Of a DNA stretch of 21,173 nucleotides, positions 1 to 21,173 are shown one piece after another (the stretch's first letter is position 1; every line of letters starts with the position of its first letter). Under the pieces are notes generated by a model. That model searched no databases. It saw only the letters and a list, made by a program, of their open reading frames with translations, and was not told where the DNA came from. The position numbers and the translations under genes were made by a program. This DNA is from a virus: positions 1 to 21,173 of IMG/VR virus record IMGVR_UViG_3300037189_004921. One strand, given 5' to 3'.

Positions 1-2934
1 CATATGGTTCCTGCAATAGGATCAAGTGATAGTGTAATCATTAATAACTCCGGCGAAGCCGACGGCTACGGTGGCGCAACTAGATTACCTGTTGGTGAGA
101 TAAACAATGCAAATCAAAAACAAGATAATAAATCATTATTGTCGGCACTCTCTAGACCTGTGCATAGTTATCAGGCAGCAATATTAAACCAACAAGGTCT
201 TATACGTGATCCTGATAGAGGTACTATTGGTAGCAATAGTATGCGTGAAAGTCCTAGTCGTGTATTTGGTATAAGCACACCTGGACGCCCTATATACGAA
301 GGTGGATATGACGATACTACAATTGCAGATGCAGTTAAAGATGATTCTATTCCTGACAAAAATTTTAAAGTTGTTGGAAGACGAGGAGGTCATAGTGTAG
401 TTTTAGATGACGGAGACCTAGCTGGCAAAGACCAACTGATGAGATTTAGAACTGCTAGTGGTCATATGATAATGATGAATGATAGTATTCAATCATTGTT
501 TATTATTCATGCTAATGGTCAAAGTTATATTGAATTGGGTCGTGAGGGTACAATTGATATGTACTCAACTAACAGTGTTAACATTAGAACTCAAGGAGAT
601 TTAAATTTACATGCTGATAACGATATAAACATTCACGCTGGTAAGAATTTTAACGTCAACGCTGAAAACATAAAAACAGAAAGCTCCAAAGAAACAACAA
701 GTTTTGTAGGGACAAACTACAAACAACAAATTAAAGCAGACATGACTGTCAAAGTAGATAGTAAAATGAGTTTTTCTAGCACCGGGGATAGTAGCTTTAA
801 GAGTTCAGCGATTTCATATATCAATGGTAGTAAGGTAAATTTGAATACAGGTTCAAGTGGTTTAGTACCAGCAGACGTTAAACAAATGCCGTTAGTTGCA
901 CATACTGATACATTATATGATAAGAAAAAAGGTTATGCTGCCGCTCCTGGAAAGTTATCTAGTATTACAAGTAGAGCACCGGCACACAGTCCATGGGCTA
1001 GTGCTGGCCAAGGGGTTAATGTTAAAACCGATATAAGTGCAGACTCAAACTTACCGGCTGCACCTTCGTCTACTTTGTCTGCTGTTAATAACAGTACACC
1101 CGCAGTACCACCAGCTGGTGTATCAGCCGCACTATCCGCCGCCGCACCAAACGTACCGGCAATTTCAGATAAATTTGATAAGGCTGCAACTAGTGCATTG
1201 GTTTCACAAATGGCAGTCGGAGCCGCAACAGGCTTAACTGCTGGTGCTGTGGCTGGCGCCGCGGGAATAGTTAATGTTGCTGGACAAAAAGTAGCTAGTC
1301 TTGGAACATATGGATTAAACCCTACACAACTTGTTAGTTCCGGGGTATTAAAGAAGGGGGCAGACATTGCAGTTAACGCTAGCGTTGCCGCCGGAAAATC
1401 ATTAGAACAGGCAATGCCAACTAATCTCTTTACTGGATTAAATGGTATCAAAAGTGCATCACAGTTTATTGGTAGTTCTTCAGCACAAGCCTCGTCTGCG
1501 GTATCATTGTTAAAACAAGGTTCAGACGCATTGAATGCTACCGGTATATTAGGTACTAATACAAGTCCAACACAAACGGGAGGACTGATGCTGTCTGCTG
1601 CCACTGCGGGCATTGATAAAACCCTCGACTACGTTAAGACAACTGCAGGAGCTTTGGGTACAGGAATAAACTTGGGAAGTCAATTAGGTGGACTTAAGTT
1701 GCCTGGCAATCTATCTGCTATGTCGGGTTCAGTTAAAGACATTATTTCGGGTGGAAATTTTGCTGCCAATCTAGCAGATAAGGTGACTGGTCCACTGAGT
1801 GGATTGCCGGTCGCAGATCAATTAAAGGGAGCCGCGGCTGGCGCGTTTGCAAAAATTACATCTTCTTTTAAATCATTTCCTAAGATTGGTGCCCCTATTA
1901 ACTTAACAGCAATCAAAGCAAAGAATGATGAAGATCAGGCATCGGAAGATAGTAAAGATGAAGTACAAACACCAGCACAAGTTGCCGCAGCCTCATCACT
2001 AAATCAAAAATTAACTAGTGCTTTGGGGTTGCAGGCTGGAGGAACAACGTCATCAGTGTTAGGTGGTATAGGTGATAAAATTAGAGCGGCAACTTCTGGA
2101 ATCACAGATCCAGTTAAATTAGCAGGAGCCACTGTAACTGCTTTGGGAACTGCTACTAAAGGTTTTGGAATAGATACTAGTGGGTTGGGTAACTTGCCAG
2201 GTGGAGCCTCAGCAATATCCAACGTAGTAAATTTAGGTCCAGTCGCAAAAGCTATTTCTAGTGATTTAAATAGTGGATTAAATGTTGGTAGTGTTACTGG
2301 AGCCGCAAATAAATTAGTATCCGGCGCAATAGATATTCCTGGTCTTCCTAGCATACCCGGTATACCTAATGTTCCCGGTAGTGGAGAATTATCCGGTGCT
2401 ATTAATAAAATTTCTGGATCATTATCGGGACCATTAGGCGGGGTAACTAATGCATTATCTGGAATAAAATCTAAGTTAGGATCTGGTACCAGTGGTCTAC
2501 AAGCATTAGCTGGTTTGGGTTTAGGAACTAAAGGATTATCATTGTTAAGTGGTAGTATCAATTCAATTGGTACAGGTGGCGCAGTTGAAGTTAAGTTGCC
2601 AACTGTAGCTAAAGATAGTTTTGATTTTGGACCTATGATGTCTCAGGCTAAGTCCTTGTTGGGTAATCCTAAGATACCGGCATTGTCATTTGGAACCATA
2701 CCAGCCGGATCATTTAAAACTCCAACTTCTGCTGAAGCAGCCGCCTATGATAAATTAAAGGCAGAGTTATCGACCCAAGAAGATTTACAATTTGATTTGA
2801 GAAAAACATATTTAGATTTAAAAATGCTGAACGGACCCGATGACTCAGCAACTACAACCGCATATGCGGCATGGCAGGATAATGTTAAGAAAATTGAAAC
2901 ATTAAGACAGGACCTGTCTAAAGCAGTGACATAA
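1..2934 (+). CDS. gp5: Baseplate central hub/spike protein, gp5-like, 5'-partial, with long Gly/Ala-rich extension
   Basis: Probable cell-puncturing hub of the contractile-tail baseplate. The frame is open to the left edge (codon 1-3 is His), and the first ATG at 4 has no visible ribosome site, so the true start and the family's N-terminal OB-fold probably lie upstream. Numbering from that ATG: residues 85-130 form a linker; 140-290 form a gp5/VgrG-type beta-helix, with 'RTASGHMIMMND', then 'GQSYIELGREG', then short alternating polar/hydrophobic turns rich in N, D, I and G; 325-336 read 'APAHSPWASAGQ'. About 350-900 is a Gly/Ala/Ser-rich extension, including a small-residue hydrophobic stretch (400-435), an acidic patch near 643-655 and a Pro-Gly repeat (778-792). 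About 905-976 is charged and probably helical (coiled coil). T4 gp5 is 575 residues including a lysozyme domain; this fragment is 976 with no lysozyme motif visible. No cysteine seen. Family call firm; function of the extension unknown. Confidence 0.85.
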   Translation, partial: HMVPAIGSSDSVIINNSGEADGYGGATRLPVGEINNANQKQDNKSLLSALSRPVHSYQAAILNQQGLIRDPDRGTIGSNSMRESPSRVFGISTPGRPIYEGGYDDTTIADAVKDDSIPDKNFKVVGRRGGHSVVLDDGDLAGKDQLMRFRTASGHMIMMNDSIQSLFIIHANGQSYIELGREGTIDMYSTNSVNIRTQGDLNLHADNDINIHAGKNFNVNAENIKTESSKETTSFVGTNYKQQIKADMTVKVDSKMSFSSTGDSSFKSSAISYINGSKVNLNTGSSGLVPADVKQMPLVAHTDTLYDKKKGYAAAPGKLSSITSRAPAHSPWASAGQGVNVKTDISADSNLPAAPSSTLSAVNNSTPAVPPAGVSAALSAAAPNVPAISDKFDKAATSALVSQMAVGAATGLTAGAVAGAAGIVNVAGQKVASLGTYGLNPTQLVSSGVLKKGADIAVNASVAAGKSLEQAMPTNLFTGLNGIKSASQFIGSSSAQASSAVSLLKQGSDALNATGILGTNTSPTQTGGLMLSAATAGIDKTLDYVKTTAGALGTGINLGSQLGGLKLPGNLSAMSGSVKDIISGGNFAANLADKVTGPLSGLPVADQLKGAAAGAFAKITSSFKSFPKIGAPINLTAIKAKNDEDQASEDSKDEVQTPAQVAAASSLNQKLTSALGLQAGGTTSSVLGGIGDKIRAATSGITDPVKLAGATVTALGTATKGFGIDTSGLGNLPGGASAISNVVNLGPVAKAISSDLNSGLNVGSVTGAANKLVSGAIDIPGLPSIPGIPNVPGSGELSGAINKISGSLSGPLGGVTNALSGIKSKLGSGTSGLQALAGLGLGTKGLSLLSGSINSIGTGGAVEVKLPTVAKDSFDFGPMMSQAKSLLGNPKIPALSFGTIPAGSFKTPTSAEAAAYDKLKAELSTQEDLQFDLRKTYLDLKMLNGPDDSATTTAYAAWQDNVKKIETLRQDLSKAVT

Positions 2935-2947: not shown

Positions 2948-2953
2948 ATATAT

Positions 2954-3397
2954 ATGGCAACATACATTGGGTTTAGTACTAAAAACGTGAATAGCGTCAG
3001 AAAAATAGTACCTACGGGAACTGATGGTGGTTCTACTATATTGGCTAAATCAGGATCACGTAAACGTTTCAAACTAACAGATGAACAGCTAGTTATTAAT
3101 GATTTTATCAATGCACTAAACATACCCCAAGGACAAAAACCAGGTAAACCTAGTTATGGCACTACATTATGGTCTTTTATTTTTGAACCAAACACATTAG
3201 ATGTAAGACAAGCCCTAACCACTGAAGTCACACGAGTTGCGCAGTCAGATCCTAGAATTGAGCTAAACTCATTAGAAGTGTATCATCAGGATCATGGCAT
3301 ATTGGTACAACTTGAAATGGCAATTGCCCCCTTCAATGACGCTATGACGTTTAATCTATTCTTTGACCCCAAGACAAATTCAGTTTTTGGTAGTTAA
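2954..3397 (+). CDS. gp25: Baseplate wedge protein, gp25 family
   Basis: A 147-residue wedge component of the contractile-tail baseplate, related to T4 gp25 (132 residues) and type VI secretion TssE. In T4, gp25 bridges the wedge core and the first sheath ring and helps start sheath polymerisation. Visible family features: an N-terminal basic segment (residues 16-40), 'NDFINAL' (49-55), 'PSYGTTLWSFIFEP' (66-79, the family's conserved P-x-YG...FEP block), and 'DPRIELNSLEV' (99-109), which aligns with the EPR motif of gp25/TssE with Asp in place of Glu. The C-terminus (118-142) is the usual amphipathic beta hairpin. It starts 19 bases after the hub gene with an AGGA site, and is followed by gp6 after 46 bases, the expected baseplate context. 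No cysteine. Confidence 0.9.
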   Translation: MATYIGFSTKNVNSVRKIVPTGTDGGSTILAKSGSRKRFKLTDEQLVINDFINALNIPQGQKPGKPSYGTTLWSFIFEPNTLDVRQALTTEVTRVAQSDPRIELNSLEVYHQDHGILVQLEMAIAPFNDAMTFNLFFDPKTNSVFGS

Positions 3398-3416
3398 AAC
3401 TCTCATTTTTTAGTAT

Positions 3417-3424
3417 GATAAATA
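3417..3424 (+). promoter_or_regulatory. T4-type late promoter-like box before gene 6
   Basis: GATAAATA matches the T4 late box at seven of eight positions. It sits in the 46-base gap between genes 25 and 6 and ends 19 bases before the gp6 ATG. A purine-rich site (AGAGA, 3431-3435) follows in the same arrangement as at the gp25 gene. The only other feature seen in this gap is a T-run near 3405-3411 without a convincing hairpin. Confidence 0.5.
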
Positions 3425-3430
3425 CATAAA

Positions 3431-3435
3431 AGAGA
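3431..3435 (+). promoter_or_regulatory. Weak ribosome binding site of gp6 gene
   Basis: AGAGA, eight bases before the ATG at 3444, is the only purine-rich candidate upstream. The conserved gp6 N-terminus starts just after this ATG, so the start is well supported even with a weak site. Confidence 0.45.
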
Positions 3436-3443
3436 AATAACTT

Positions 3444-6400
3444 ATGGCCACAAGTTCAAGACAATCTAGTATATTTGGTGTAAATGATTGGAAAACAATC
3501 TATAAAACATACAAACAAGCTGATTTCCAAAGCTATGATTACGAAACCCTTCGTAAGACGTTCGTAGATTACCTACGTAAAAACTATCCCGAAACTTTCA
3601 ATGACTATATTGAATCTAGTGAATATGTTGCGTTACTAGATGTAATGGCATTCATGGGTCAAGCATTGAGCTTCCGTGATGACTTAAACACCCGTGAAAA
3701 CTTCATTGACACAGCCGAACGCAGAGACAGTGTTATCAAGCTAGCCAACTTAGTTGGCTACAATCCTAAGCGTAATAATGCTGGTCAGGGTTATTTAAAA
3801 ATTACTTCAATTCAGACAACTGAGCAAGTCAAAGACATTAATGGTTTGGTTCTTAATAATTTAACAATCTTGTGGAATGACCCTGCTAATCCAAATTGGC
3901 AAGAACAATTTAACAGTATTATAAATGCCGCTTTAATTGATTCTCAACGTGTTGGTCGTCCTGGAAATAGTAAATCTATACTAGATGTTAAGACAGATGA
4001 ATATAGTATTAGTCTTCCTACCGGTATTATTGCAACTGCTCCATTCAATGCAACTGTTGATGGAGTAAATATGGATTTTGAATGCGTTAGCGTAACCAGT
4101 TTAAATTCTGACAGTCTGTATGAAATACCACCCGGACCTAATGGCAAATTTAACATAGTGTATCGCAATGATAGATTAGGTTATGGAAGTCCAAACACTG
4201 GATTCTTTATGTATTTCAAACAAGGGTCACTACAAACTTATGGTTTTAATTTAACTGAACAGATTAGTAGCCAAGTGGTGGACGTTAACATTCAGGGAAT
4301 TAACAACACTGATACATGGTTATATAACTTTGACAATACTACTGGTACAATTAATGAATGGACTCAGGTAGAAAGTATCTATGCTAATAATACTAATCAA
4401 TTATTGTCTACTAATAAAAAAGTATATAGCATAACGTCTAGGTTCAATGACCAAGTAAGCTATGTATTTGGTGATGGAGTGTTTGGTGAAATGCCAATTG
4501 GCAACTTCACTGCATATGTTCGTGCAGGTAATGCATTGACATACACTATCAACCCAGATGAAATGCAAGGAACTACTGTTTCTATTAATTATGTAAGCCG
4601 TGTTGGACGAGTAGAAACATTGACAATAACTATGGAACTAACTATTCCAGTTGCTAATGCACAAGCAAGAGAAACTCTTGCAAACATTAAACAACGTGCC
4701 CCGCAACGATTCTATAGTCAAAATCGTATGGTTAATGGAGAAGACTATAATAATTTCCCATATACATTGTATGGGTCAATTATTAAAAGTAAAGCATTGA
4801 ATCGTAGCAGTGTAGGTGTAAGTCGTAATTTTGACCTATTAGACCCAAGTGCAAAATATTCAAGCACAAACAATTTTAGTGATGACGGTGGTCTATACTT
4901 AGAGAATAGTGACGGGTATACTACGTTCACAGCAAATACCACCAACGATGTTGTTGCGTTTTTAACAGAGACATTAAATAACGAACTAAACGATCACCGC
5001 TCTTATCAATATTATACACAACATTATAGAAGATATAATGTTAACAGTGGTTCCGGAGACGGTACTGTTATCTGGAATCAAACGTCATTTAACACCTTAG
5101 AATCAACTGGTTATTTTAAAAATATTTCAGGTCCTATGCCAATTGGAGTTTACAGTACAGGTAATGTAAAATATCTTACTGAAGGCGCACTGATTAAATT
5201 TATTGCACCCAGCGGATACTATTTTAGTCAAGATAATAGGTTAATCGAAGGTCTACCAACCCCAGCAGATAATAAATTTATTTGGACAAGTGTTGCTAGT
5301 GTTACAGGTGACGGATCTAACAATGGTCAAGGCAATTTAGGAAATGGCTTTGGACCAGTTGTGTTAAATAATCCTATTCCCAATGGAGTAATACTAACAA
5401 CAATTCTTCCTTCATTTACAAATCTATTGCCATCAGACGTAATTCAAGATTGCATAACACAGATTACATTGAATCAGAGTTTTACCTTAATATACAATAA
5501 CACATTACTTGCAAATCAAACACGATGGATAGTTGATACATTTGATAAGACTAACTATTTTGTCAAATTTGAAAGTTTAGGTAGTAATCGTTATATGGTA
5601 ACACATAAGTCATTAGCTTATTACTTTGGTAGTGTGGCTAATATTCGATTCACATTTGATAAAAATAATGTCATATATGACCCTTCTACTGGAAAACTCC
5701 TACAAGATTTTGTCAATGTGTTGAAAGTTAATAGTCAACCAGATAGCAACTATCCGTTTGCCGTTGATACTAAATTAAGTATTGTTGGTCAATTAGTTGA
5801 AAGTGACGGGTATATTGATGACTATAGTGTAGAAATTTCTAGTACCGATCCTAATGTAGCTGGAGTTGTTAAAGACCCTGATTTCTTTTATGACCTAACT
5901 GGCTATGCAACTGGTACAAAGAACACTTCTAATTTTGTTTTCTTTCAACAAGTTACTGACATCAATTTATTAACTAGATATCAAATGGTATCTAATAAAA
6001 ACATAATTTATGCGTACACTACTAAAGCAGAAATAGCATTGGTTCAGTATGAATATGCTGCCGGTCAACTATACTATGCTACTAAGGAAAATGCATTTTA
6101 TCAATCGGTAAATGATGCGGTAACAAAAAACATTGTTAGATTGGTTCAAGTTAATAACTATATTGCAAAAACTGGAAGACAAGGTTTATCATTTCAATAT
6201 AGACATAACTCAAACAATACAACACGTATTGATCCAGCTACAACTAACATCATTGATTTATACGTAGTCACTCAATCTTATTATACTCAATATCAAAACT
6301 GGATTAAAGATACGTCAAACAAATTGACAGAACCTACAAGCCCAACTATCAATGAGTTAAATATAGCATACAGTGAGATCAATGATTATAAAATGTTAAC

Positions 6401-6800
6401 TGATAGCGTTATTCTAAACAGTGTAAAATTCAAACCATTGTTTGGAAATAAAGCATCACCCCAACTACGTGCAACTATTAAAGTCATCAAGTCTAGTGGA
6501 ACAACTGCTAGTGACAGTGAAATTCGAAGTGCGGTGTTAAGTGAGATGAATACATATTTTAGCATTGACAATTGGAATTTTGGTGACACTTTTTACTTCA
6601 CTGAACTTAGTGCGTACTTGCATTCTAAGATAGGTGACTTAGTAAACTCTGTGGTGTTAGTGCCAAATGATCCTTCATTGAAGTTTGGTGACCTATACGA
6701 GATTCGTAGTGCACCTTATGAAATTTTCGTCAATGCGGCACAAGCAACTGATATCATGGTTATCAGCGCATTGACACCCGCCGAACTACAAACATTTTAA
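3444..6800 (+). CDS. gp6: Baseplate wedge protein, gp6-like (Baseplate J superfamily), enlarged
   Basis: Core wedge subunit; in T4, gp6 dimers form the inner ring that holds the baseplate together and rearranges on sheath contraction. Seen here: an N-terminal helical block with 'MGQALSFRDDLNTREN' (71-86), 'AERRDS' (91-96) and 'LVGYNPKR' (103-110); the Baseplate J core with 'YVFGDGVFGEMP' (340-351) and 'APQRFYSQNRMVNGEDY' (419-435); and the C-terminal wedge domain with 'LRATIKV' (1008-1014) and 'FGDTFYFTELSAYL' shortly after. T4 gp6 is 660 residues; this protein is 1,118. Most of the excess appears to lie between about 530 and 1000, Asn/Thr/Tyr-rich beta-type sequence including 'YLTEGALIKFIAP', which I cannot assign to a named domain. 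Two cysteines only. It follows gp25 and ends 13 bases before the giant gene. Confidence 0.9.
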   Translation: MATSSRQSSIFGVNDWKTIYKTYKQADFQSYDYETLRKTFVDYLRKNYPETFNDYIESSEYVALLDVMAFMGQALSFRDDLNTRENFIDTAERRDSVIKLANLVGYNPKRNNAGQGYLKITSIQTTEQVKDINGLVLNNLTILWNDPANPNWQEQFNSIINAALIDSQRVGRPGNSKSILDVKTDEYSISLPTGIIATAPFNATVDGVNMDFECVSVTSLNSDSLYEIPPGPNGKFNIVYRNDRLGYGSPNTGFFMYFKQGSLQTYGFNLTEQISSQVVDVNIQGINNTDTWLYNFDNTTGTINEWTQVESIYANNTNQLLSTNKKVYSITSRFNDQVSYVFGDGVFGEMPIGNFTAYVRAGNALTYTINPDEMQGTTVSINYVSRVGRVETLTITMELTIPVANAQARETLANIKQRAPQRFYSQNRMVNGEDYNNFPYTLYGSIIKSKALNRSSVGVSRNFDLLDPSAKYSSTNNFSDDGGLYLENSDGYTTFTANTTNDVVAFLTETLNNELNDHRSYQYYTQHYRRYNVNSGSGDGTVIWNQTSFNTLESTGYFKNISGPMPIGVYSTGNVKYLTEGALIKFIAPSGYYFSQDNRLIEGLPTPADNKFIWTSVASVTGDGSNNGQGNLGNGFGPVVLNNPIPNGVILTTILPSFTNLLPSDVIQDCITQITLNQSFTLIYNNTLLANQTRWIVDTFDKTNYFVKFESLGSNRYMVTHKSLAYYFGSVANIRFTFDKNNVIYDPSTGKLLQDFVNVLKVNSQPDSNYPFAVDTKLSIVGQLVESDGYIDDYSVEISSTDPNVAGVVKDPDFFYDLTGYATGTKNTSNFVFFQQVTDINLLTRYQMVSNKNIIYAYTTKAEIALVQYEYAAGQLYYATKENAFYQSVNDAVTKNIVRLVQVNNYIAKTGRQGLSFQYRHNSNNTTRIDPATTNIIDLYVVTQSYYTQYQNWIKDTSNKLTEPTSPTINELNIAYSEINDYKMLTDSVILNSVKFKPLFGNKASPQLRATIKVIKSSGTTASDSEIRSAVLSEMNTYFSIDNWNFGDTFYFTELSAYLHSKIGDLVNSVVLVPNDPSLKFGDLYEIRSAPYEIFVNAAQATDIMVISALTPAELQTF

Positions 6801-6813: not shown

Positions 6814-9800
6814 ATGGCAAAACGAGTTAGAACAATTGATTTTTTACCGGAAATCTTTAAGACAGATATCAATAACCAATTTTTATCAGCCACACTAGAT
6901 CAATTAGTACAACCTCCTAATTTCAAAAAAATACAAGGTTTCATTGGGAGTAAATTTGGTTACGGTGTTACCTCTAACGACGGTTATGTAGCCGAGCCAA
7001 CCAAGACTAGATCAGACTATCAGTTAGAACCAGCAGTTATTTTTAAAAAGAAAGATACTCAAGTTGCAATAGATGCTATTACATACCCTGAATTAGTTGA
7101 TGCATTATATGTTGAAGGTGCTGCCACTGACAACCACAACAACTTATTCACTAATGAATTTTATTCATGGGATAGTTTTACAGATTTAGACAAGCTAATA
7201 AATTACAGCCAATATTATTGGTTGCCACAAGGCCCTGAACCAGTTAACATCAGTGATACTGCCATGTACAAAAGTGGCACATTCACTATGCTTTCTAATA
7301 ATGTTGTATATGATATTACATCTGACTTATTTACGTTTGACGTAAGTAATCCTACTATCACATTGGTTAGAGGTGGCTTGTACAAATTTGTAGTAGGACA
7401 AGATACTCGGTTGTTTATTCAAACAGAACCGGGTATTACTGGTTATGAAAAATTAAGAACAAACATTAGTACACGTGAAGTCTATGGTGTAGATAATAAT
7501 GGTTTATCAACCGGCACTATTACTTTTCATGTACCACTAGCTAATGCACAAGACGAATACAACTATCCAGGCAATAACCCTGTTGACCTAGTGACTACTA
7601 AGTCAATTGGTGATATACACGGTAAAAAATTAAGCGAATTAAACAACATTGACGGTATTGCAAGTTTAGATGGAAAAAGAATATTATTTTATGGAACACA
7701 GCCGGGAGTACAGGCATACATTGGGGACTTCTATGGAGAGTATGCATTTGACGTTGATAATCCAGGTAGAGTTACCCCTATTGTAACTGAAGTAACGGCA
7801 ACGACTGGGGAAGTAACAGACTTTGATGAAGAAAATTTCGACAGTGATCCATTGGGTTATACTAGACATACAATAACATGTTTATCTACTAGTGGGTTTG
7901 ATGTTAACGATGCAGTAACATTTACTGGAATTTCTTTTGGTGGCATAGAAGAAGGATTAGTTTATTATATAGCCAGTATTGTAAATAACACCACTTTTAC
8001 TATATCTCCTTCTTTATACGGAGCTGCCCTTGAGTTAACTAATGGTACAACCAATTCAAATGGTAAGTTATATGTAACCGTGCATCAAGGCGGATTTGAA
8101 GAAGGCACACTAACTACCATCAATAATAATTTTTACAGAATTTCATACGTTGGTGAAGAAGATGATCCTATTATTAGTTTATACGAAGATGGTGTAATCC
8201 CCAACGACCAAACTATAGAAATAAACTATGGTAAACAATACATTACCCGTCGTTTTGTTCGTAATGCATATGGGGAAATATCATTGGTTCCTCTTATTAC
8301 GGCCAACCTAAACAAGTTATATTATCAGGATAGTAACAACCCAGATCAGTATGGTATAATTAAACTCATTGATGCTCCTAGTCTTTCAGGAATAGATGTT
8401 GATGATATTATAGGAAAGAAAACATATACTAGTCCAAATGGAGTGACGTTTACCAATGGCTTAAAAGTTAAGTTTAATGGTAACATCATCCCTGCCAAAT
8501 ATACCACTGACCAATACTATGTAGAGGGCGTTGGAACAAGTATTGCGTTATTGCCGGTTAGCGAACAATTAGTACCTGAACCATTTGGTCAGGGATTCTT
8601 TGCACCATTTGATAATGCAGCCTATGACACGGATGCATATGGCAGCGCATTGCTAGTACCAGCAGACAGTGATTATATTACTATCAACCGTAACAGCAAA
8701 AGTAAAAATGCTTGGAGTCGTAGTAATAGATGGTTCCATGTAGATGTATTAAACACTACTCTTGCTAATAATAACAACAGTCCAATGGTTAAGGCGGCAC
8801 TATCTAATTCAACAGCTAGAGCTAAAAGACCTATTATTGAATATTATCCAAACATAAAATTATTCAATTCAGGTAGCATGGGTAAGGCACCAGTCGATTA
8901 TATAAACTTTACTGTAACAGATGCATTCAATCAAGTTGCAGGAAAAACTACATATTTTCCAGATGGCGAAGAAAATGAATTGTTTGATGGTGCACGAATT
9001 ATATTTGCTAATGATACTAACGTTGACGTAAGAAATAAAATTTTTGTATGTACGTATAGTAAAACAAAGTCTACCAGCACAGGATCAACTATCACATTGT
9101 CTAAAGCAGCCGACGGGGATGTATTATACAATGACCAAACAGTTATCGTTAAAGGCACTGCTTATCAAGGTAAGAGTTTTTATTTTGATGGTTCTAACTG
9201 GATACCTGCACAGTTTAAACAATATGTAAATCAATATCCCAAGTTTGATATATTTGACAACAATGGAATAAGTTTTGGAGATATTGAATATTATCCTGGT
9301 ACTGACTTTGTTGGTTCAACATTATTTGAATACCAGGCTGGTTCAGGTGTCAATGACATTATTTTAGGATTCCCTATTAAGTATAGTTCTATTACTAACA
9401 TAGGTGACATTAGTTTTAGTGTGAGTTTAAATTCTCAGACATTCAACTACGTGTATAACAGTCAATCTATTACTACACCAGTGAATTCAGGTTATGTTCA
9501 TATCTATTCATCTAACACAATTCACGACAGGCATATTGGTTGGCAAACTGCCGTTGCACCATCTATTCAATATCAGGTGTTTAAATTCACATATTCTCAG
9601 GATACAATAATATGTGATGTTCCCGCAAAAGATGCCGCTAAAACAGAATGGCCGGTGATTACTGTGTATGTAGACAATCAACGAACTACGGATTATACCT
9701 ATGTAGTGACTGATACAACTACGGTTATTACATTATCTAATCTACCTGCTTTGGGGACACCAGTTGAAATTTTAATTTATAGTGATAGTGTCAGCAAAGT

Positions 9801-12800
9801 TGCTTATTACCAAATACCTGCAAACTTTGACCATAACCCCTTTAACTCACAAGTAGCTGTTGTTAACCTGGGTGACCTACGTGGACATTATAAGAGTATC
9901 TGTAACAATATCAAAACGTTAACCGGTAATGCATTTGGTCCTAATAATTTTAGAGATTTAGGAAACATTATTACGTATGGTACACGAATTATACAAAATA
10001 GTGCATCACTTGTAGCACCATCTATATTTTTAAAATCATCTGATAATAATATTTTCAATGCACTAACTTTCAATGCAAACGAATATACAAAATTCAAGGC
10101 AGCATTGATGGATATAGTAAACAGATCAGATTACAGTCCATTACAATCTAACAGCGATATATTAGACGATGCGTTGGATCAATTGACTGGTACCAAATCA
10201 GATACTAACTCTTTCTTTTGGAGTGACATGTTACCCTCAAAAGGTGCATTGACTGTCAAAACATATAATTTTAAGAGTGGCGTAGATTCATCTATATATC
10301 CCTTAACGAAAGTCTACGATTATGCTACTGCTAATTATAATGGTATACTAGTATACTTGAACAGAAAAATTGATGGAGTAGTTCGCAACATACAATTACT
10401 AAACGATATTGACTATCAAGTAAGTTCAACTGAAAAAAGTTTAACTATTAGCAAATATCTGTTACCCAATGATGTTATTACTATCAAAGAGTATTCACAA
10501 ACATACGGAAGCTATGTACCAAATACTCCTACCAAGATGGGTTTATACCCATCATACATTCCAGAAGTTTTTAAAGATAATAGTTTCATAACACCTACAT
10601 ATTTTATTAGAGGTCACGACGGATCATATACAAAGTTGTATGGTGAATATAATAGCGGATACCTAGAAGATTTTAGAGACCGTGTATTGTTTGAATTTGA
10701 AAACAGAATTTATAATAACTTAAAAGTCAAGGCTAAGATACCGCTGGCATATGATGACATTTTTCCTGGACAATTTAGAACTACTGATTATTCTTTTGAT
10801 AAATTAAATGCAATATATTCCTCACAGTTTCTAAACTGGGTTGGAACAAATAGAGTTAACTATCAAAGTCAATATTATAGTTCTACTAATGAGTTTACTT
10901 GGAATTATAAAAATTCTACAAACAAGTTAACTAATACCAATCTTGCACAAGGTAACTGGAGAGGTGTGTTTTATTGGTTATATGATACATCACATCCAGA
11001 TACCCGTCCTTGGGAATTATTAGGTATAAACAATAAACCAACTTGGTGGGACAGCCGTTATGGTGAAGCCCCGTATACAAGTGAAAATATATTACTATGG
11101 ACTGACCTAAGTAAAGGATATGTATGGAATAACGGTGATAGTTATATTAATACTAAACGTGTCCGACCTGAATTATTGAAGGTACTGCCGGTAGACTCTA
11201 AGGGTAGATTAGTTAGTCCATTTACAAATGTACTAAGTGCATACGATACTAAAACTTTCAATACCGATTGGAACATCGGAGACTTAGGACCAACTGAATA
11301 TAGTTATAGAAAAAGTAGTCAATGGCCATTTGATTTAATGCGCATGTATGCATTAACTAAACCTGCACAGTTTTTCTCTTTAGGTATTGACCTTGATGTA
11401 TTACAATATAATTATGAATTTAAACAGTACTTAGTTAATGATAGATTACGTCAACCACCGTCAAGTTTGTTAATATATGGTGGAGGGGAAGACCATGCCG
11501 CTCATAGCTATTTGAATTGGATTGTTGATTACTTAAACCAATATGGAATTAATGGTAGTCAACAGGTGTCTGACTATCTCAATAATACCGATGTTAGATT
11601 AACTTATAGAATGGCTGGTTTTAGTGATAAAGAATTACTAAAGTTCTATGCAGAAAAAGGATCACCTAACAGTAAGAACAATAGTTTGTTGATACCGGAC
11701 GAAAGCTACAATATCATAATGTACGAGAACCAACCTTATGATACGATTGTATATAGTTCTATTGTCATACAAAAAACTAGTCTTGGCTACAGAGTATATG
11801 GAAACAGCCAAGACAAATCATATTTTGTTGTATCTGATCCCAATTTAAATGGTATCCTAGATACTATAACGATTGACAATTACACCGTTAGAGTGGCAAA
11901 ACTATATAATAAAACTACAACATATGTTCCATATGGCACTGAATTTACTAATCTAAGTGCCTTAGTACAATTCATTGGTGGGTATGGTAATTATTTAGAA
12001 ACACAGGGTGTTAAATTTAACAACATTGAAAATGCATTAGAGTTAAATTGGAAACAAATGATTGCAGAGCTTATATACTGGTCTAGGTCTGGTTGGGAAG
12101 ACGGCAGTATCGTAAACTTGAATCCAAATGCTAATAGTATTACTATTACTACAGAACGTGGTATATTACAACCACTAACAATTTACCGTGACAACTATAT
12201 TCTAAATCAAAACTTGCTACCTATCGCACTAAATGATTTGGCTATCACTAGACTAGATACTACGTTTACTGCCACAGCATTAAATCAAGGTGATTCTATA
12301 AGTTTTATGCGAAGCAAAATAAGTGGCGTAGAACATATTGTTGTATTCGACAACACCACAGTATTCAATGATACTATGTTTAACTTAGTGACCGGCTTAC
12401 GTCAACAACGTATATACGTTAAGGGTGTAAAGACGGCTGAATGGACTGGGCAGATGAACGCCGCTGGGTTTATTATCAATCAAGACAATATACAAGAGTG
12501 GATCACTAATCAAAAATATAATAAAGGTTCGATTGTCAAACACAAAAATGAATATTGGATAGCAAAAAAAGTAACAGTAACTCCTGCTACTAAATTTAAT
12601 CCAGACGAGTGGAACAAAACATCATATGAGACTATTCAAAAGGGTATGTTACCTAACCCTAGTACTAGAGCATACGAATCAACCTTATACTATAATACTA
12701 ACATAGCCAATTTAAAAAATGATGCAGACTTATTAGGTTTTTCATTGATTGGATATCGTCCTAGAAACTATCTAGCAGAAGCTAATTTGGATGACACTAC

Positions 12801-15800
12801 TCAAGTTAATATCTATAAGAATTTGATTTCAAGCAAAGGTACTAGAAATGCATTTGATTCGTTAGTTGGTATAAACCTACAACAGACAAATTTAAAATAT
12901 GATTTGTATGATAACTGGGCAATCAAAACTAGTGAGTACGGCGGAGTATTAAATAAAAACTTTATTGAACTTACATTAGATGAGAGTCAACTTTTAGGAA
13001 ACCCGGCTACTGTTGGTATTGTTCACGGAGAAGAGTTATCTGGCATTCAACAAATAATTCAACTTTATGATTTAAAAAATTACGGCTATGCAGTAAATAA
13101 TACAAACATCTTACCTACAATTCCTTCTACTACTGATAGTAAATTACCATCTGCGGGTTATGTAAACTTAGATGACATATCATACACTGGTTACTATATT
13201 AACAACTTAGATAATACTTCCATCGGCGATCTATACAAAAATGATTATATTTGGATTGCGGATAAAATTGGAGAATGGAAAGTTTATACTCCAATGGCAT
13301 CTACTAGTAGATTAGTTAATGTTATCAATAACTTAAACAATACTTGTACCTTTGTTTTTAGTGGTCATCATAATTTTAGTGTCAACGACAATTTTGGTAT
13401 TATAAACTATGAGTATCGTATCAATGGATACTATACTGTGTTATCTATCGATAATCTAACTACGATTGTAGTTGATTTGGTAATTGATTCTTCGGTGGGC
13501 AATATCACTGGCGGAATAAACAGTATTATGTTCAAGTTAGAGAATCAACGAGTAGAACGTGCAAAAGACATTGCTTCTTTGAAGTTATTGAATTCAGAAT
13601 ATGTAAACAACAAAGTATGGGTAGATAAAAACTTATCCGGAGAGTGGAGCGTTTTACGTAAAACTAATAATTACTCACATACTACTTTTGTTAAACCAGG
13701 CGGAACAATTGAATTTGGTAGCGCAGTATCATATACTGACAAACTAGGATTTTTTGTTTCAGATCCTGCAAATAGCAAGGTTCATCGTTTCATAGAAGTT
13801 AACAGTGGTAATACTGATTATGCACTAGTTGATACTATTACGCATGGTCAAGGCTATGGTACTGCTATTGTTAAAAACGATGAGGTGATGATTATATCAC
13901 AACCTGATCCGTTTGGAGATTTGAGTATTCTATATGTTTATAGAATGGTTAAAAACGATAGAATCGTGTCCTTAGTAGAAGAACAAATTCTTGCAGTTGC
14001 TGGATTTAGATTAGGTGATAGCGTAGCACTTTCCGGTGATGGTGAAATGTTCTATGCTAGTATTATTGACCTTAATGCAATTGTTGAGTTCCAACGTAAC
14101 GCTGATTATACCTATTATGATATTGGTGCTACACTAAAATCATCAGTAACACCTGGCTCTACATCTATTGAATTGAATGGTAATATTCCTAATTTAGTAC
14201 CAGGTAGATACATTACGTTTACTGCGTTTGGGTATGATGAAAAGTATATGATAGTAACTTCAAAATATAATTCATCAACTAATTCTACTAGCGTATATCT
14301 ATATACACCTGTACCTTATAGTGTTGGTGTTGGGGCAAACGTCTATAGAGCTAGCATCAGTTATTTCTTATTGGGTGCTATTACGAGTGAAGGATTAGCT
14401 AACGGCACTGATTTGTTCAGTTACAGTTTAGCTACAAATTATGACGGAAGTAAATTGTTTGTTGGATCACCTCAGGCTGATTTTAGCGGGCAATTGCAAG
14501 ATTCAGGATATGCGTTCATATTTGATAGATTGATTGAAAATTGGGAAGTAATTACGGATAGCCAAGCCGGTAGTTTTACATTGTTCTTCTTGCCTTGGCA
14601 GCCCACACCAACATCTGTTGTTTACCTCAACGGCGTCAAACTTAATCCCTCATATTATGTATTGATATCAAACTTGTTAGTTATAGGTCCTATATTACGT
14701 GCTGGAGACATAGTAACAGTCAGTAGTGGTAATTTAGTATTAGTACAACAACTTGCAAGCTATGATTTAATTGAGGATATTGACCCTGGTGCTAAATTTG
14801 CTTGGTCACTGGATTGTAATACATCAGGTAGTGAAGTGTTGGTTGGCAGTCCATTCAATTTAAACCCAGAAGAAAAAGAAGGTGCGGTGTTTAGATACTC
14901 TAATGAAGGTAAACACTTTGGTAGAATAACCGGCATCCTTCAATGTACTTTGTTAGAACCGGCTAGTATTTTGATTAATGGATATCGTGTTGCGTTACCT
15001 GACCCCACACTACTATCAGCTGGTGACGCTTTTTACGTAGCTAACAAAATTAATCAAGCTGTGATTAATAATGTTTTTGCATATGCGACTGAAGACAATC
15101 GTTTAGTAATTCGTTTACGTGATGTTGATTTAAACCCTGTAAACAATAAATTAAACTTAACAGTGTTTAATGCTAACGTCATGACACAGCTTGGTATAGC
15201 AACGTACTTAAAAACTCAAGTAGTATATGACCCGCACCCTAGCACTAGAACTCAGTTTGGATATAAAGTCAAATTCAATGAACAAAATAGTTTTGTAGTA
15301 AGCGCACCCGCTGGCACACGATATGTTGGAACACAGTTTGACTTTAGTAACGATGAAAACAATCACAATGATACTGTGTTTGACAATAACTTCACTCAAT
15401 GGGAAGATGCATACGGTGATGCAGGAACAGTATACATGTATGATTATATTCCTTCATACGCTGAAAGTTTATTGACTGCAAGTAACTACGTATATTCACA
15501 GTCTCTTCCTGACACTGTAATTGATTATGGTCGTCAACCATTCTATGGTCAATCATTAGATTTCTATAAAAATAAAGTAATGATTGGATCACCTAACTTT
15601 AAGAATGGTACTGTGAATGGTCGTGTGACAGTATATAGCAATGAAGTTGGGGTAGCTAACTGGGCAGTTTATAGAGAGTCGTCTAATGTAATAGATATTG
15701 ATAAGATTCAAAAAGTACAAATCTACAATAATATAACCAACGTTACCCTTGAGTCGTTAGATTATTTTGACCCACAACAAGGCAAACTACTAGGTCCTAT

Positions 15801-18800
15801 TCGTGAAAATATAGACTTTATTACATCAGTTGACCCGGCTGGATATAATAACCTTAATGCTAAAGGTAACATGGCATGGGGAAAAAATCAAGTAGGTAAG
15901 ATTTGGTTCGATGTAACTACTACTAAGTTTATTAATTATCATCAAAACGATTTAGAGTATAATAGTAAGTACTGGGGTAATATATTCCCTGGTAGTACAG
16001 TAACAGTATACAGTTGGATTGAAAGTGATGTATTACCAGCATTCTACACTGGAGATGGTCAACCTTATAATTTTGGTAGTTACAGTTTAGGATTTGAAAC
16101 TGATGCCGGCGGAAACTTGGTAACACGATATTACTATTGGGTTCGCAATACCAATGTCTTGTTTGGATTGCAAGGCAAAACATTAACTGATGCCGTGATT
16201 GCTCAGTACATTGCTAACCCACAAAGTTCTGGCATATCATATTTTGCCCCACTTGCACCTAACGTATATTCTTTATATAATGTGCGTGATGTAGTCTATA
16301 GCAAAAATACTAATTTGCATATTGGATTTAGTACAAACGACATCGATATCCCTAATCATTCTGAATATCAGTTAATACGTAACGGTTATGCCAACGACTT
16401 CTTAAAAGGCGTACCCGATAAAGTAAATTATTTAGAACCAAGTGGATTATACAACAAGTTACTTTGCAGTTTTTCTGGTGTAGATGAGATTGGTCAAGTA
16501 TTACCTAATCCAAATCTACCTAAGTTGTTGCAAGTTGGTATAGGCACTCGACCAAGTCAATCATTGTTTGTAAATCGTTTTACCGCTTTAGAAAATTATT
16601 TGCAGTATGCAAATACTGTGATGAAAACTTATCCTATTAATGAATTGAGCACAGTCACGTTTTTGAATACATATGGCAACACATATGACACTAGAAAATA
16701 TTGGCAGAATGTTTATTGGTGGGCAGAAGGTTACCAAAGCACAACAAAAACTGCGTTTGAAGTTGCTACTTATTATGACTTATTAAAAGTTGATGGTAAA
16801 GAGGGATTAATTGTTGGCGTAAGTATGAATAGTCAGGGTAAACGTGAAATATACAAGTATACCGCTGACGCTTGGTCTCGCATTGGTTTAGAAGATGGAA
16901 CTATAGAATTTTTAAGTAACCTATGGGATTATCAAGATAATAAGATTGGTTTTGGCGACGTATTTTTTGATACAGTATCATTTGACGCATACCCTTCTCT
17001 TGAAACAAGATATATTATACGTGCATTGAATGAACAGATTTACACAGGACCCCTGAACATATATAAAAACAAAAGTTTAATTTTAGTTTTTGAATATATT
17101 CAAAGTGAAAACGTAGAGTCAAGTAATTACTTACCATGGTTGAACAAAACTAGTTTAGCCGATGTTAGTTATACTGTGCGTGGCTTAATACCTTATCAAA
17201 AATATCAAAGTGATAATACTAATTTACTTGAGGGATATTTGAATGAAGTTAAACCATATCACGTAGTATTAAAAGAATTTAGTTTTAAATATGATGGTGT
17301 TGATACCTTTGATGGCAACATTACTGACTTTGACTTACCATCACAATATAATCGTAATTTAAATAGATTTGTCTCGCCGCGGTTAACATATACTACTCCT
17401 AGTGATACCGGAGAATATACCAGTACTGATCCAATATGGTCTAGCAATAATGCATACCAAACTTGGGTTGATAATTATGGATTAAAATTGATTGCTAAAA
17501 AGAATCAAGTTTTAGCAAAACTAGTTAGATATGTTAACAATACTAGTCAGGCATTGTATGTAGATAATGCAAGTAGTTTCCCAGTTGCGGGTTTAGTTAC
17601 TATTGGTGGAGAATTGATTTCTTACACAACAGTAGACCGTGCTCGTGGAAAATTATCAGGATTGAGTCGAGGTGTAAGCAATACCTCAGTAATTGAACAT
17701 TATCCAGGTACTAGTGTGTATGCTGATTTACCGGGAGTAATTGTTTTAGACAGTGGTCGTGCATACATTGATCCTCCCATAGTAAAGGCATATATTGATA
17801 CTACTAAGTATCCAGCTCCAAAACGTGAAGCTATATTGAAGGCTGCAATGGGCGGTGGTAAAGTAATTGAAATTGAGGTAATTGATCCGGGTGAAGGATA
17901 TGCAGTTGCTCCTGAAATTATATTCCAAAGTGCATTTGAAACAGATTTTACAGTAAACAACATCAATTTCCAATCAAACTTGATTGTTATTGATCCTACA
18001 GCAATTGTTACCGGCGACTTAATTAAGATTGTAAATGACGCTAGTGGGATGGAAGCTATAACTACCGGTTACTATTATGTTAAAGTGTTAGGCTTTAATA
18101 GAACCCGAGGTGTGATTACTAACGACCCGGTTATCTCCCTACACTATAATTATAGAGATAGTTTAGTGGGAGAACATAAGGTAGTGTTTAATCAAGCAGT
18201 TGATCCATTGATAACTTATACTTTGCAAATGGTTCCTAGAGCGATAGCGGTAACTACTAACCCGTTACTGCGTTCAATCAATACAACAATACGTTTGGAT
18301 AGAACCAGCTACACCACAATGATTGAAGAATGGAAATCTGGAACATACTGGCCTAGTCCGTTCAACAGTTTGGGAAATGATGCCAGTACTAATACTGCAC
18401 TGAGTTTTGGTATTCCGTTTCAATTTGAATATGACGACGGGAAGAATTTCCAAGACAGCGTTAGTGGTAATGGTGTTAAATTTACAATATATAATCAAAC
18501 AATGTTGGGTTCATATGCAGCCAGTATTGAATCCCCGGGTGCATCTTACGCTGTGGGTGATACGATAACAGTTGAAGGGTTTTATTTAGACGGAGTCACT
18601 GGTGCAAATAACTGTGTTATAACAGTTACTCAAATTAATGGATCTACTTCTGGTCCTATTAGGACTGTAACAGTAAGTGGTACGCCTTACTCAAGAACTG
18701 GCGCTGGCTCTCAGGGTGCATTATTACCAATAACAGGCGTGACAAGCGTGGACGTTACACCTGATACCCCTGTAGTTGTCGCATTGAATTATAGACCTAG

Positions 18801-21173
18801 CACATTAAGACCAGGTCAAATTAAAGGCTTACCAATGTACTTCTTCCACACTTATACCCCTTACATTTATGATGATAGAGGCAAGATGTTTACCGGATCA
18901 ATAACTGACACTACTCTTACAGTTACCGCTATAGTAGGTTCTAGTACTACTTTAAATATAGGAGATCATGTGTACGGCAGGGGCGTAGAATTTGCGGGAT
19001 TGGGAACTGTCATTACTGGATTTGGTACAGGTACCGGTCGTTTAGGTACGTACACGGTGTCTCAATCACAGACGGTTTCGTCTACTGATATGAGTACAGG
19101 CGGTGGTGCAAAAATTGAAGTACACCGTCCTAGATTCAACCCAGTATCAATTACTAATCAATACTTTATTAAAATTTTAGATTACGGATACAAGTATGTT
19201 GATGACGACCAAATTTTATTACAAGGGTCATTATTAGGTGGGACCAACATTACTAATGATGCTAGTATCAACATACGTTATGCAGATGATTTTGGTAGAA
19301 TTCAAATTGTTACTGTAACTGGAGTTTCAATGGGTGGATTTAAACAATATTTTGTAACACCAATTAGTCCTACTCAAGTTTTGTTATTCCAAGATAGTAA
19401 CCTAACTATTCCAGTAATATATAACGAGTTTGACTATAATAATACAACTACTGACTTTGGATTTATTCCAGAACCGTTATCATCTGGTGGTGGGTACAAG
19501 TACACTGTAACCGCTATTGTTTCATATGACAAAAAAGTTTGGCGTTGTTTAGTCAGTAATAGTGATGATGTATTTGACTATGCTAAGTGGCAAGAAATCA
19601 AGAGTGATGACAGAATTTTAAATGCAATTGATAGAGCTATTGGTTTCTACGAACCTACAGCAGATATGCCGGCAAAAGATTTAACTCAACTGTTTACTGG
19701 TATAACATATCCTGATGCAGTTTATTACGGCAACAGTTTCTCCCCCGAAGATGAATTACCTTTAGATATCATATTAAGAGATAGAACATACTACCCTAGA
19801 GATACCGATATTAAAGCAATAATTTATGACGGTTCAGAATATTTGGCAGTCGGGGAAACAGCAACGCATTCTGTTGCTTTAATAAGTTCGGATGGCATTA
19901 ATTGGCGCATAATTAAACTATCAGATCAAAACTTAGGTGTAACCGATGTTGTTTATTCGGGATTATACTATGTAATTACTACTACAACTATAGCGACCCC
20001 TGTGTTAATAAGTGGTGACAAAATATTTTGGTCTACACTAGGATCTCCGTCTGCATATGACTTTGCGCCATACGGTTACTCTGGGTATGATACACTTGCA
20101 TTAACTGTTCCTAATGAATCAATGTATTCTTTAACTTATGTAAATGACAAGTTTTTTGCTATAGGCAAAAATATTGTTTCTAGTGATGATGGCATTACTT
20201 GGGAAATTGTGTTTAGTTTTAATAGTGTATTAGATAACCAAATTAAGAATTTACGCTATGTAGAAACAACTGGATTTGTTGGATACATTGCAGTAGGCGG
20301 TGGAGATCAAGTTGTAGCCAATGCCGGATCCTCTGCGCCTAATATTCAACGTAAAGCTAAAATTATTACTTCCGTTGCGGGCACGTGGAGTCTACATAGT
20401 CCTTCGTTTACTTCTAATCAAATGAATACTGTTATTTCTTCAAGTACTGTAATTGTAATTGCAGGGGAAAACGGAGAGATTTGGTATAGTGGTAATACCA
20501 GTAACTGGATATTAGCTAGCACAGCCGGCGGATCAGTCAATGCGACATTACGAGATAGTGCATATGGTAATAGCGTTTTTATTATCGTTGGTGATGCACC
20601 CAGGGATATTAACGGTAAAATAAACGGCCCATCGTCAATTCTAAAATCAACCGATGGTATATCTTGGGGTAAAATTTCAAGCCCAATAAATTATGACTTG
20701 ACCGGTATTACTTTCGACGGAGCCTATTTCTATGCTGTTGGTGATAACGGTGTTATTATTCGTAGCACATATGGAACTGTATGGGAAGATATTTCTTTTA
20801 TCACAACCGACAGCCCGTTATATGATATCAAAGGAAGTACATACTTGGCGGGTTATGGTCCTGAAGAACTTGTACCCGGGGTTATATATGATTCATTGTC
20901 AATGAAGGTCATTAATCGTCCAGGCTCATACTGGGACAATGACACCTTTACTCAGTCTTTCTTGTATAAAAACACTGGTTATAATATTGTGTCTACAATA
21001 CTGACACCGACCGGAACTACTGCTAGCTTTGATAACTTGGTAGAAAATCCTGCTCAACTTGCAATATTTGTAGTTAATAGCAGTACTAAGTTAGGTAATA
21101 GAATTTACGAAGGTCATGGATATACACTAAATTGGATTACAAAAACGATTACTCTAACTTCTGTGTTGACTGC
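6814..21173 (+). CDS. Giant multidomain virion structural protein, 3'-partial (at least 4,786 residues)
   Basis: One uninterrupted frame from ATG 6814 to the window edge; I read every codon and found no stop, so the gene continues outside. Likely a baseplate-attached or fibre-like structural protein, over 500 kDa. N-terminal region: '[15 protein letters not shown]' (10-24), '[15 protein letters not shown]' (130-144), cupredoxin-like 175-252, '[11 protein letters not shown]' (632-642). Middle: '[12 protein letters not shown]' (1237-1248), '[14 protein letters not shown]' (1409-1422), carbohydrate-binding-like 1895-1936, FG-GAP-like propeller 2301-2945. Later: '[13 protein letters not shown]' (3379-3391), '[15 protein letters not shown]' (3475-3489), 'FPVAG' module (3581-3638), Gly-Thr module (4030-4094), second carbohydrate-binding-like segment (4230-4260), Asp-box propeller (4336-4665), '[10 protein letters not shown]' (4680-4689). 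Only ten cysteines, no signal peptide or membrane segment seen. These motifs recall giant 'virion structural proteins' beside gp6 in marine T4-like phages (recalled, not searched). Exact role is inferred from position. Confidence 0.85.
7336..7569 (+). other. Cupredoxin-like segment of giant protein
   Basis: Residues 175-252 read '[20 protein letters not shown]', then 'LFIQTEPG', then '[18 protein letters not shown]'. This follows the pattern of cupredoxin-like beta-sandwich modules in phage structural proteins (NPTlxLxRGxtYxFxV ... GTitFxVP). The usual metal ligands (His before the second block, Cys and His near the end) are not seen, so it is probably a structural module that does not bind copper. 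Confidence 0.45.
9649..9786 (+). repeat. 'VYLNG'-type beta module, copy 1 in giant protein
   Basis: Residues 946-991: '[20 protein letters not shown]', a Thr/Val strand, then '[15 protein letters not shown]'. It matches the common phage tail-protein module of the form VxVYLNGxxxxxxYxV...LxxGDxIxIxxYS. Two further diverged copies occur in the same protein at 10339-10500 and 14602-14730. Confidence 0.45.
10339..10500 (+). repeat. 'VYLNG'-type beta module, copy 2 in giant protein
   Basis: Residues 1176-1229: '[19 protein letters not shown]', '[15 protein letters not shown]', '[14 protein letters not shown]'. It shares the strand-turn-strand pattern and the closing 'xxxDxITIxxYS' with copy 1. 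It directly precedes the conserved '[12 protein letters not shown]' segment. Confidence 0.45.
12496..12618 (+). other. Carbohydrate-binding-module-like segment 1 (CBM5/12-type pattern)
   Basis: Residues 1895-1936 read '[20 protein letters not shown]', 'WIAKKV', then '[10 protein letters not shown]'. The order W ... Y-x-x-G-x-x-V-x-x-x-x-x-Y-W-x-A ... F ... W is that of the small chitin/cellulose-binding CBM5/12 modules, with three aromatic positions kept. It also matches small virion-fibre modules of unknown ligand. Sugar binding is inference from pattern only. Confidence 0.45.
14602..14730 (+). repeat. 'VYLNG'-type beta module, copy 3 in giant protein
   Basis: Residues 2597-2639: '[20 protein letters not shown]' and '[13 protein letters not shown]'. 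It is the copy closest to the common module. It lies between FG-GAP-like blades 4 and 5, so it looks like a module inserted into the propeller. Confidence 0.5.
14962..15171 (+). other. Hook-IN-like insertion between FG-GAP blades 5 and 6
   Basis: Residues 2717-2786: '[17 protein letters not shown]', '[20 protein letters not shown]', 'RLVIRL', 'NKLNLTVFN'. The order IxING ... xxINxAxIxxVxAxxxxxxLxI resembles the flagellin/hook IN motif, which also occurs in phage structural proteins. The match is by pattern only. Confidence 0.35.
17551..17727 (+). other. 'FPxxG ... RG' tail-protein module
   Basis: About residues 3580-3638: '[20 protein letters not shown]', '[20 protein letters not shown]', then 'EHYPGTSVY'. 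This wording (short strand, SFPxxGxxxIGxExIxY, then LxxLxRG and HxxGTxVY) is a small beta module that recurs in phage tail and fibre proteins. It is followed by '[10 protein letters not shown]' and '[11 protein letters not shown]', two copies of a GxGYxxxPxI turn motif. Confidence 0.4.
18901..19095 (+). other. Gly-Thr-rich repeat module
   Basis: Residues 4030-4094: '[20 protein letters not shown]', 'GDHVYGRGV', '[20 protein letters not shown]', '[11 protein letters not shown]'. The pattern TxLTVTAVxSGxIxVGxxLxGxGV...GTxIxxxGTGTGGxGTYTVxxSQTVxSTxM is a module I recall from surface and phage structural proteins of many bacteria and viruses. A single copy is seen here, although the module is often tandem elsewhere. 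Confidence 0.5.
19501..19605 (+). other. Carbohydrate-binding-module-like segment 2
   Basis: About residues 4230-4264: '[20 protein letters not shown]', then 'FDYAKWQEI'. It has the same Y ... V-x-Y-x-x-x-x-W ... S-x ... F-x-x-x-x-W skeleton as segment 1. It is followed by '[14 protein letters not shown]' and '[18 protein letters not shown]', a conserved-looking linker before the Asp-box propeller. Confidence 0.4.
19819..20808 (+). other. Asp-box (BNR/Ycf48-like) seven-bladed beta-propeller
   Basis: Seven Asp-box-like motifs start at residues 4358 (SSDGINW), 4400 (SGDKIFW), 4456 (SSDDGITW), 4519 (TSVAGTW), 4559 (SGNTSNW), 4612 (STDGISW) and 4651 (STYGTVW), spaced 39-63 residues apart. Most are preceded by a 'YxAVG' or 'FxxxG' strand ('YLAVGE', 'FFAIGK', 'YIAVGG', 'VIVIAG', 'FIIVGD', 'FYAVGD'), the blade pattern of sialidase and Ycf48-type propellers. 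Copies 1, 3 and 6 are near canonical; 2, 4, 5 and 7 are degenerate. Sialidase catalytic residues cannot be assigned, so binding rather than catalysis is more likely. Confidence 0.6.

Follow-up and report, generated by a model that had tools for sequence, protein, structure and literature searches.

The window analyzed here, which makes up the whole 21,173-nucleotide virus record IMGVR_UViG_3300037189_004921 (IMG/VR), ends in a giant gene whose product, ~5,300 residues long when complete, probably is a hugely enlarged gp7-type wedge protein (the "wedge initiator" in T4) from a jumbo myophage of the RaK2 type. The giant is genuine and well conserved, and as a tail-baseplate protein it is of known kind and not a novelty; what is added here is its full length, taken from relatives, a match to the gp7 core, and a domain map. 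The gene lies on the plus strand (6814..21171, 4,786 codons read, 3' end missing), as do the other genes and domains of the window given below.

The genes in front of it bear out the baseplate cluster claimed in a preliminary description of the window. A gp5-like baseplate hub/spike gene (1..2934; phrog_13211 E 1e-14), its 5' end cut by the window, is followed by genes for a gp25-like baseplate wedge subunit of 147 aa (2954..3397; phrog_43 E 7e-9; PF04965 E 4e-6, just under its cut-off) and a gp6-like baseplate wedge subunit of 1,118 aa (3444..6800; phrog_10646 E 3e-255; phrog_219 E 4e-20). In a relative (L020:2773-6117), the gp5-like gene is present in full, with 1,114 aa and a match to phrog_13211 at E 1e-42. 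The giant follows directly downstream of the gp6-like gene, starting 13 bases past its end with an AGG nine bases upstream of the ATG; a promoter and terminator scan gave a signal near chance level. The order gp25-gp6-giant is also found around the homologs in Phosso, Atu_ph07, PA5oct, and CBB, and in SCTP-2 and Vibrio 2.275, the gene in front of the giant carries no gp6-like annotation. T4 gene 7 sits directly after gene 6, a slot equivalent to that of the giant. Downstream of the giant in one relative (L092:14631-22034), we noted a conserved gene of 206 aa (phrog_11259, found in PA5oct as well), a fiber-like gene of 405 aa, an unmatched gene of 323 aa, and then glycosyltransferase-like and radical SAM-like genes (judged by eye).

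By profile comparison, the giant clearly belongs to phrog_10938 (E 6.5e-276; the best stretch covers residues 907-1892), the family of giant virion proteins from jumbo phages like RaK2, PA5oct, and Atu_ph07; the family is matched by 27/27 A1 members and 27/27 A3 members. PHROGs annotates phrog_10938 as "virion structural protein" in the category "head and packaging." This category looks wrong, since the gene order and the data on CBB and PA5oct fit the baseplate better.

Besides this gene order, the gp7 reading draws on a match to the core domain of gp7 of T4 and cyanophages at residues 1953-2083 (12670..13062). A KGT motif resembling that of gp7 was noticed at residues 2008-2010 first, and the profile tests were done afterwards. 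An alignment of six gp7-core sequences matched the KGT region of the giant with an hhalign P of 8.6e-4. Because a search with the single sequence of T4 gp7 against the family alignments gave no match, a larger gp7-core profile was built from 31 sequences collected from viral contigs and compared with the giant in 81 sliding windows. Four overlapping windows over residues 1953-2083 reached a probability of 27-47% (best P 2e-4), the remaining 77 stayed at ≤1.2%, and the next best region had a P of 0.044. None of 60 column-shuffled profiles reached the score of the match. A T4/phiM7-type profile, which extends into the helix region upstream and has some sequences in common with the 31-sequence profile, pointed to the same place (P 1e-3). 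A HMMER search for the gp7 core in the giant gave no match, and Tail_P2_I (PF09684; P2 gpI), which we take to be a minimal gp7 equivalent, matched 0/7 records at E values up to 10. Residues ~1600-1830, a candidate for the second half of the core, had a probability of 3% and are a lead; the N-terminal "FLPEIF" segment showed no link to the LP helix of gp7 (residues 1-145, probability 0.2). The AlphaFold model is poor across the core (pLDDT about 30-60), and the fold searches returned no baseplate gp7 chain among the matches listed, which is not evidence against gp7. A search of the complete genomes of Atu_ph07, PA5oct, RaK2, CBB, and Phosso recognized no other gp7 core, with T4 and S-SM2 as positive controls; since HMMER misses the giant's own core, an equally diverged gp7 could still lie elsewhere in these five genomes. 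Taken together, the case for a gp7 core at residues 1953-2083 is good but not conclusive.

Around this candidate core, the giant appears as a string of β-domains. The strongly conserved N-terminal segment (residues 1-141, 6814..7236) has a pLDDT mostly below 50 and no stable fold predicted alone; strong conservation together with a missing fold would suit a segment that takes up its structure on binding partners. It is followed by a predicted cupredoxin-like β-sandwich (residues ~145-545, 7246..8448) that resembles rusticyanin in the AlphaFold model (Z 9.5, rmsd 2.0, 93 aligned) at middling confidence (mean pLDDT 68.5), with an inserted β-barrel (~320-425) similar to the Uba1/Uba6 barrel (Z about 8, fold search on the model). 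Fold searches with the middle part found only a common barrel, also present in phage endosialidases. A small CBM5/12-like domain (residues 1886-1936, 12469..12621; phrog_972 E 1.4e-5) lies just N-terminal of the gp7-core match, and CBM_5_12 is matched in 20/27 members (best E 1.4e-4). FG-GAP-like repeats with lineage-specific insertions at residues 2301-2960 (13714..15693; repeat scan; FG-GAP_2 E 0.0028, below its cut-off; integrin alpha chains E 0.008-0.04) probably form a β-propeller, judging from the repeat pattern. Residues 3631-3702 (17704..17919) are a small module in common with the cyanophage giant syn9 gp101 (blastp E 8e-5; E 6e-7 for the module in the relative G016). In the variable C-terminal third, Asp-box repeats at residues 4358-4657 (19885..20784; motif scan; DUF6242 E 0.0014, below its cut-off) probably form a second β-propeller. 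A search of the PDB with the single giant protein found nothing, and family profiles gave CBM-like, integrin-type, and weak matches only.

The preliminary description had also called the protein conserved along its whole length, and selection on the gene agrees with this. Between the window giant and three relatives, every 500-codon bin that allowed a computation gave a dN/dS of 0.03-0.10 (in three bins, saturation of pS against the most distant relative prevented it), with strongly changed synonymous sites (pS 0.34-0.76) and a frame that is open in the relatives. At the level of the family, conservation is high over residues 1 to ~3560, softer at 300-460 and 2300-2950, and drops in the last third. 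The end of the conserved core is formed by residues 2960-3560 (15691..17493). Queries with residues 1-1000 and ~2950-3560 found 57 phage records each, from the same groups: RaK2-like, PA5oct-like, Atu_ph07-like, and a few others. A similar C-terminal tail, often with G-D-P-L-Q-x-S ... F-L in the last 15-20 residues and preceded by a differing region, was seen in 14/16 environmental full-length members (a count that ignores kinship), in PA5oct, and in the contigs L086-L088. Atu_ph07, Phosso, RaK2, SCTP-2, and Vibrio 2.275 are without it, and the tail of one relative had no match among isolated phages.

From the gene position and the gp7-core match, a role in building the wedge is favored first. 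T4 gp7 is present in one copy per wedge and six per baseplate. In our model, the part of the conserved core that includes the KGT domain would pack with the gp6-like subunits and so build each wedge. The inserted and C-terminal β-domains (cupredoxin-like, CBM5/12-like, FG-GAP, and Asp-box propellers) would make a large outer portion of the baseplate that could contact fibers or the host surface, and the fast-changing C-terminal third after residue 3560 may tune these contacts. Six copies of the giant would add roughly 3.5 MDa per baseplate. Host attachment, which the preliminary description had named as a probable role next to that of a large baseplate appendage, is plausible, and adhesive-looking modules exist, but its rating as probable is unsupported; position and core match point first to the wedge. 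A bolder extension of the model is possible, though on balance doubtful: a gp7 whose core was pushed ~2,000 residues inward by inserted β-domains, and which carries two propellers and a carbohydrate-binding-type domain, might be the main baseplate surface of an uncultured jumbo-phage clade, joining assembly and surface sensing in one chain of 4,400-6,500 residues with the conserved C-terminal tail as docking end.

The giant could instead be an adhesin or baseplate appendage that is added after wedge assembly and serves mainly in host binding, with no gp7 role. The CBM5/12-like domain, the two predicted propellers, and the fast-changing C-terminus would fit such a protein, as would the tail-fiber-like genes downstream of the giant in PA5oct. 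However, the first 3,560 residues are not only well conserved but common to phages of very different hosts, the giant occupies the gene-7 slot, and the five RaK2-type genomes revealed no other gp7. We consider an adhesin of this kind unlikely.

That the giant is part of the virion, as had been supposed, is supported by its homologs. CBB_236 (10,023 bp) was found in purified virions by mass spectrometry with 21 unique peptides, whose locations are unstated, and a coverage of 7.72% (PMC5259590). PA5oct gp355 carries the annotation ESI-MS/MS. So low a coverage in CBB_236, like the long string of separate domains, could also be expected of a polyprotein that is cut post-translationally into several virion proteins. 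Some virion proteins of tailed phages are indeed processed. On the other hand, family scans revealed no protease domain, no cleavage motif was noticed (without a systematic search), and all relatives have a colinear core; we regard cleavage into separate products as improbable.

The reading frame itself is beyond reasonable dispute. Frame +1 runs from ATG 6814 to 21171 over 4,786 codons with zero stops and exits the contig, leaving 2 bases at the window end, which confirms the earlier statement of an uninterrupted protein of at least 4,786 residues. In a random frame at the local base composition, each codon is a stop with a probability of 0.0747, which gives such a frame a log10 P of -161; the longest ORFs beneath the gene in other frames encode 83 and 88 aa. 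This value and the dN/dS of 0.03-0.10 rule out a chance frame; with the frame kept across relatives, the gene encodes a true single protein, as had been claimed. An assembly artifact, in which a lost stop or frameshift fuses separate genes, deserves practically no weight. The window is a single contig without reads, and such contigs can contain single breaks, as L083 does. However, ~79 other related contigs and the six isolated phages that were examined have the same open frame, and relatives at 92-93% and 86-87% identity are colinear across the gene; together they refute an artifact in everything except the exact bases. L083 is the one of 80 viral contigs carrying the gene in which the frame is broken; there, reading halts after ~1,124 codons (~9047-9053) and an open frame resumes in another phase, which may be an assembly error or a true break. 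In NC_027399.1 (K64-1), OR699183.1, and OR699181.1, the matches fall under two to five annotated features, and the giant gene may be split there by annotation or frameshifts. Within the giant gene of the window, 28 bases at 14258-14285 match 7090-7117 at 93% in reverse orientation, probably by chance.

Two independent assemblies contain the gene in complete form, with 5,284 aa (IMGVR 3300006037_000006, 79-80% identical) and 5,285 aa (3300032247_000508, 86-87% identical). From the stops of these close relatives, the window giant is missing ~499 C-terminal residues of a full length of ~5,300 aa. The 16 environmental relatives that could be read to the stop have 4,368-6,529 aa. Among isolates, the giants have 3,326 aa in RaK2, 3,340 aa in CBB, 3,771 aa in Vibrio 2.275, 3,807 aa in SCTP-2, 3,857 aa in PA5oct, 4,449 aa in Atu_ph07, and 4,555 aa in Phosso. 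Furthermore, a 4,455-aa "structural protein" is encoded after the wedge genes of Sinorhizobium phage AP-J-162 and was matched to Atu_ph07 by the authors (PMC11242549). The size is thus not "extreme," as the preliminary description had it: RaK2-like jumbo phages as a rule encode proteins of 3.3-6.5 thousand residues in this slot, and giants also occur there in T4-like cyanophages. Nor does the gene take up a large share of the genome, which is only ~2.6-4% in sequenced jumbo relatives (from record and gene lengths). A literature search on the largest phage protein found no paper.

In sum, the giant size of proteins in the gp7 slot was already known from jumbo phages and from the cyanophages S-SM2 and syn9, and at least two phage groups encode giants in the baseplate slot after gp6. 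What our analysis offers is a testable function, that of a gp7-type wedge protein, for a family filed only as "virion structural protein." The closest known systems are the members of the same sequence family, RaK2 ORF070, PA5oct gp355, Atu_ph07 gp180, Phosso 294, and CBB_236. Like the giant, they are encoded after gp25/gp6 by one uninterrupted gene of several thousand codons and are virion proteins where tested. They are 24-28% identical to it over the aligned parts and shorter (3,326-4,555 aa compared to ~5,285 aa), and the C-terminal third of the giant is its own.

The cyanophage proteins S-SM2 gp7 ("baseplate wedge initiator," phrog_2885, 4,156 aa) and syn9 gp101 (phrog_701, 6,076 aa) occupy the same slot after gp25-gp6. 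They are like the window giant in their huge size and in small repeat modules in common with its C-terminal part, but overall homology is not detectable, and their gp7 core is located near the N-terminus, at residue ~200 (S-SM2) or ~700 (syn9), compared to ~2000 for the candidate core in the window giant. Close to its giant, syn9 encodes another large baseplate protein, of 1,386 aa (L113:21945-26105), and S-SM2 has a VrlC gene of ~7.5 kb (L109:29520-32174). If the match to the gp7 core is true, the giants of this slot would lend themselves to modeling how baseplate size is gained by domain insertion. T4 gp7 itself (1,032 aa), the baseplate wedge initiator, is about five times shorter than the giant and has no similarity to it by ordinary sequence search, but its slot directly after gene 6 is the same, and profile comparison points to a candidate KGT-type core in the giant. 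With a true core match, RaK2-like and T4-like baseplates would share the gp25-gp6-gp7 wedge plan.
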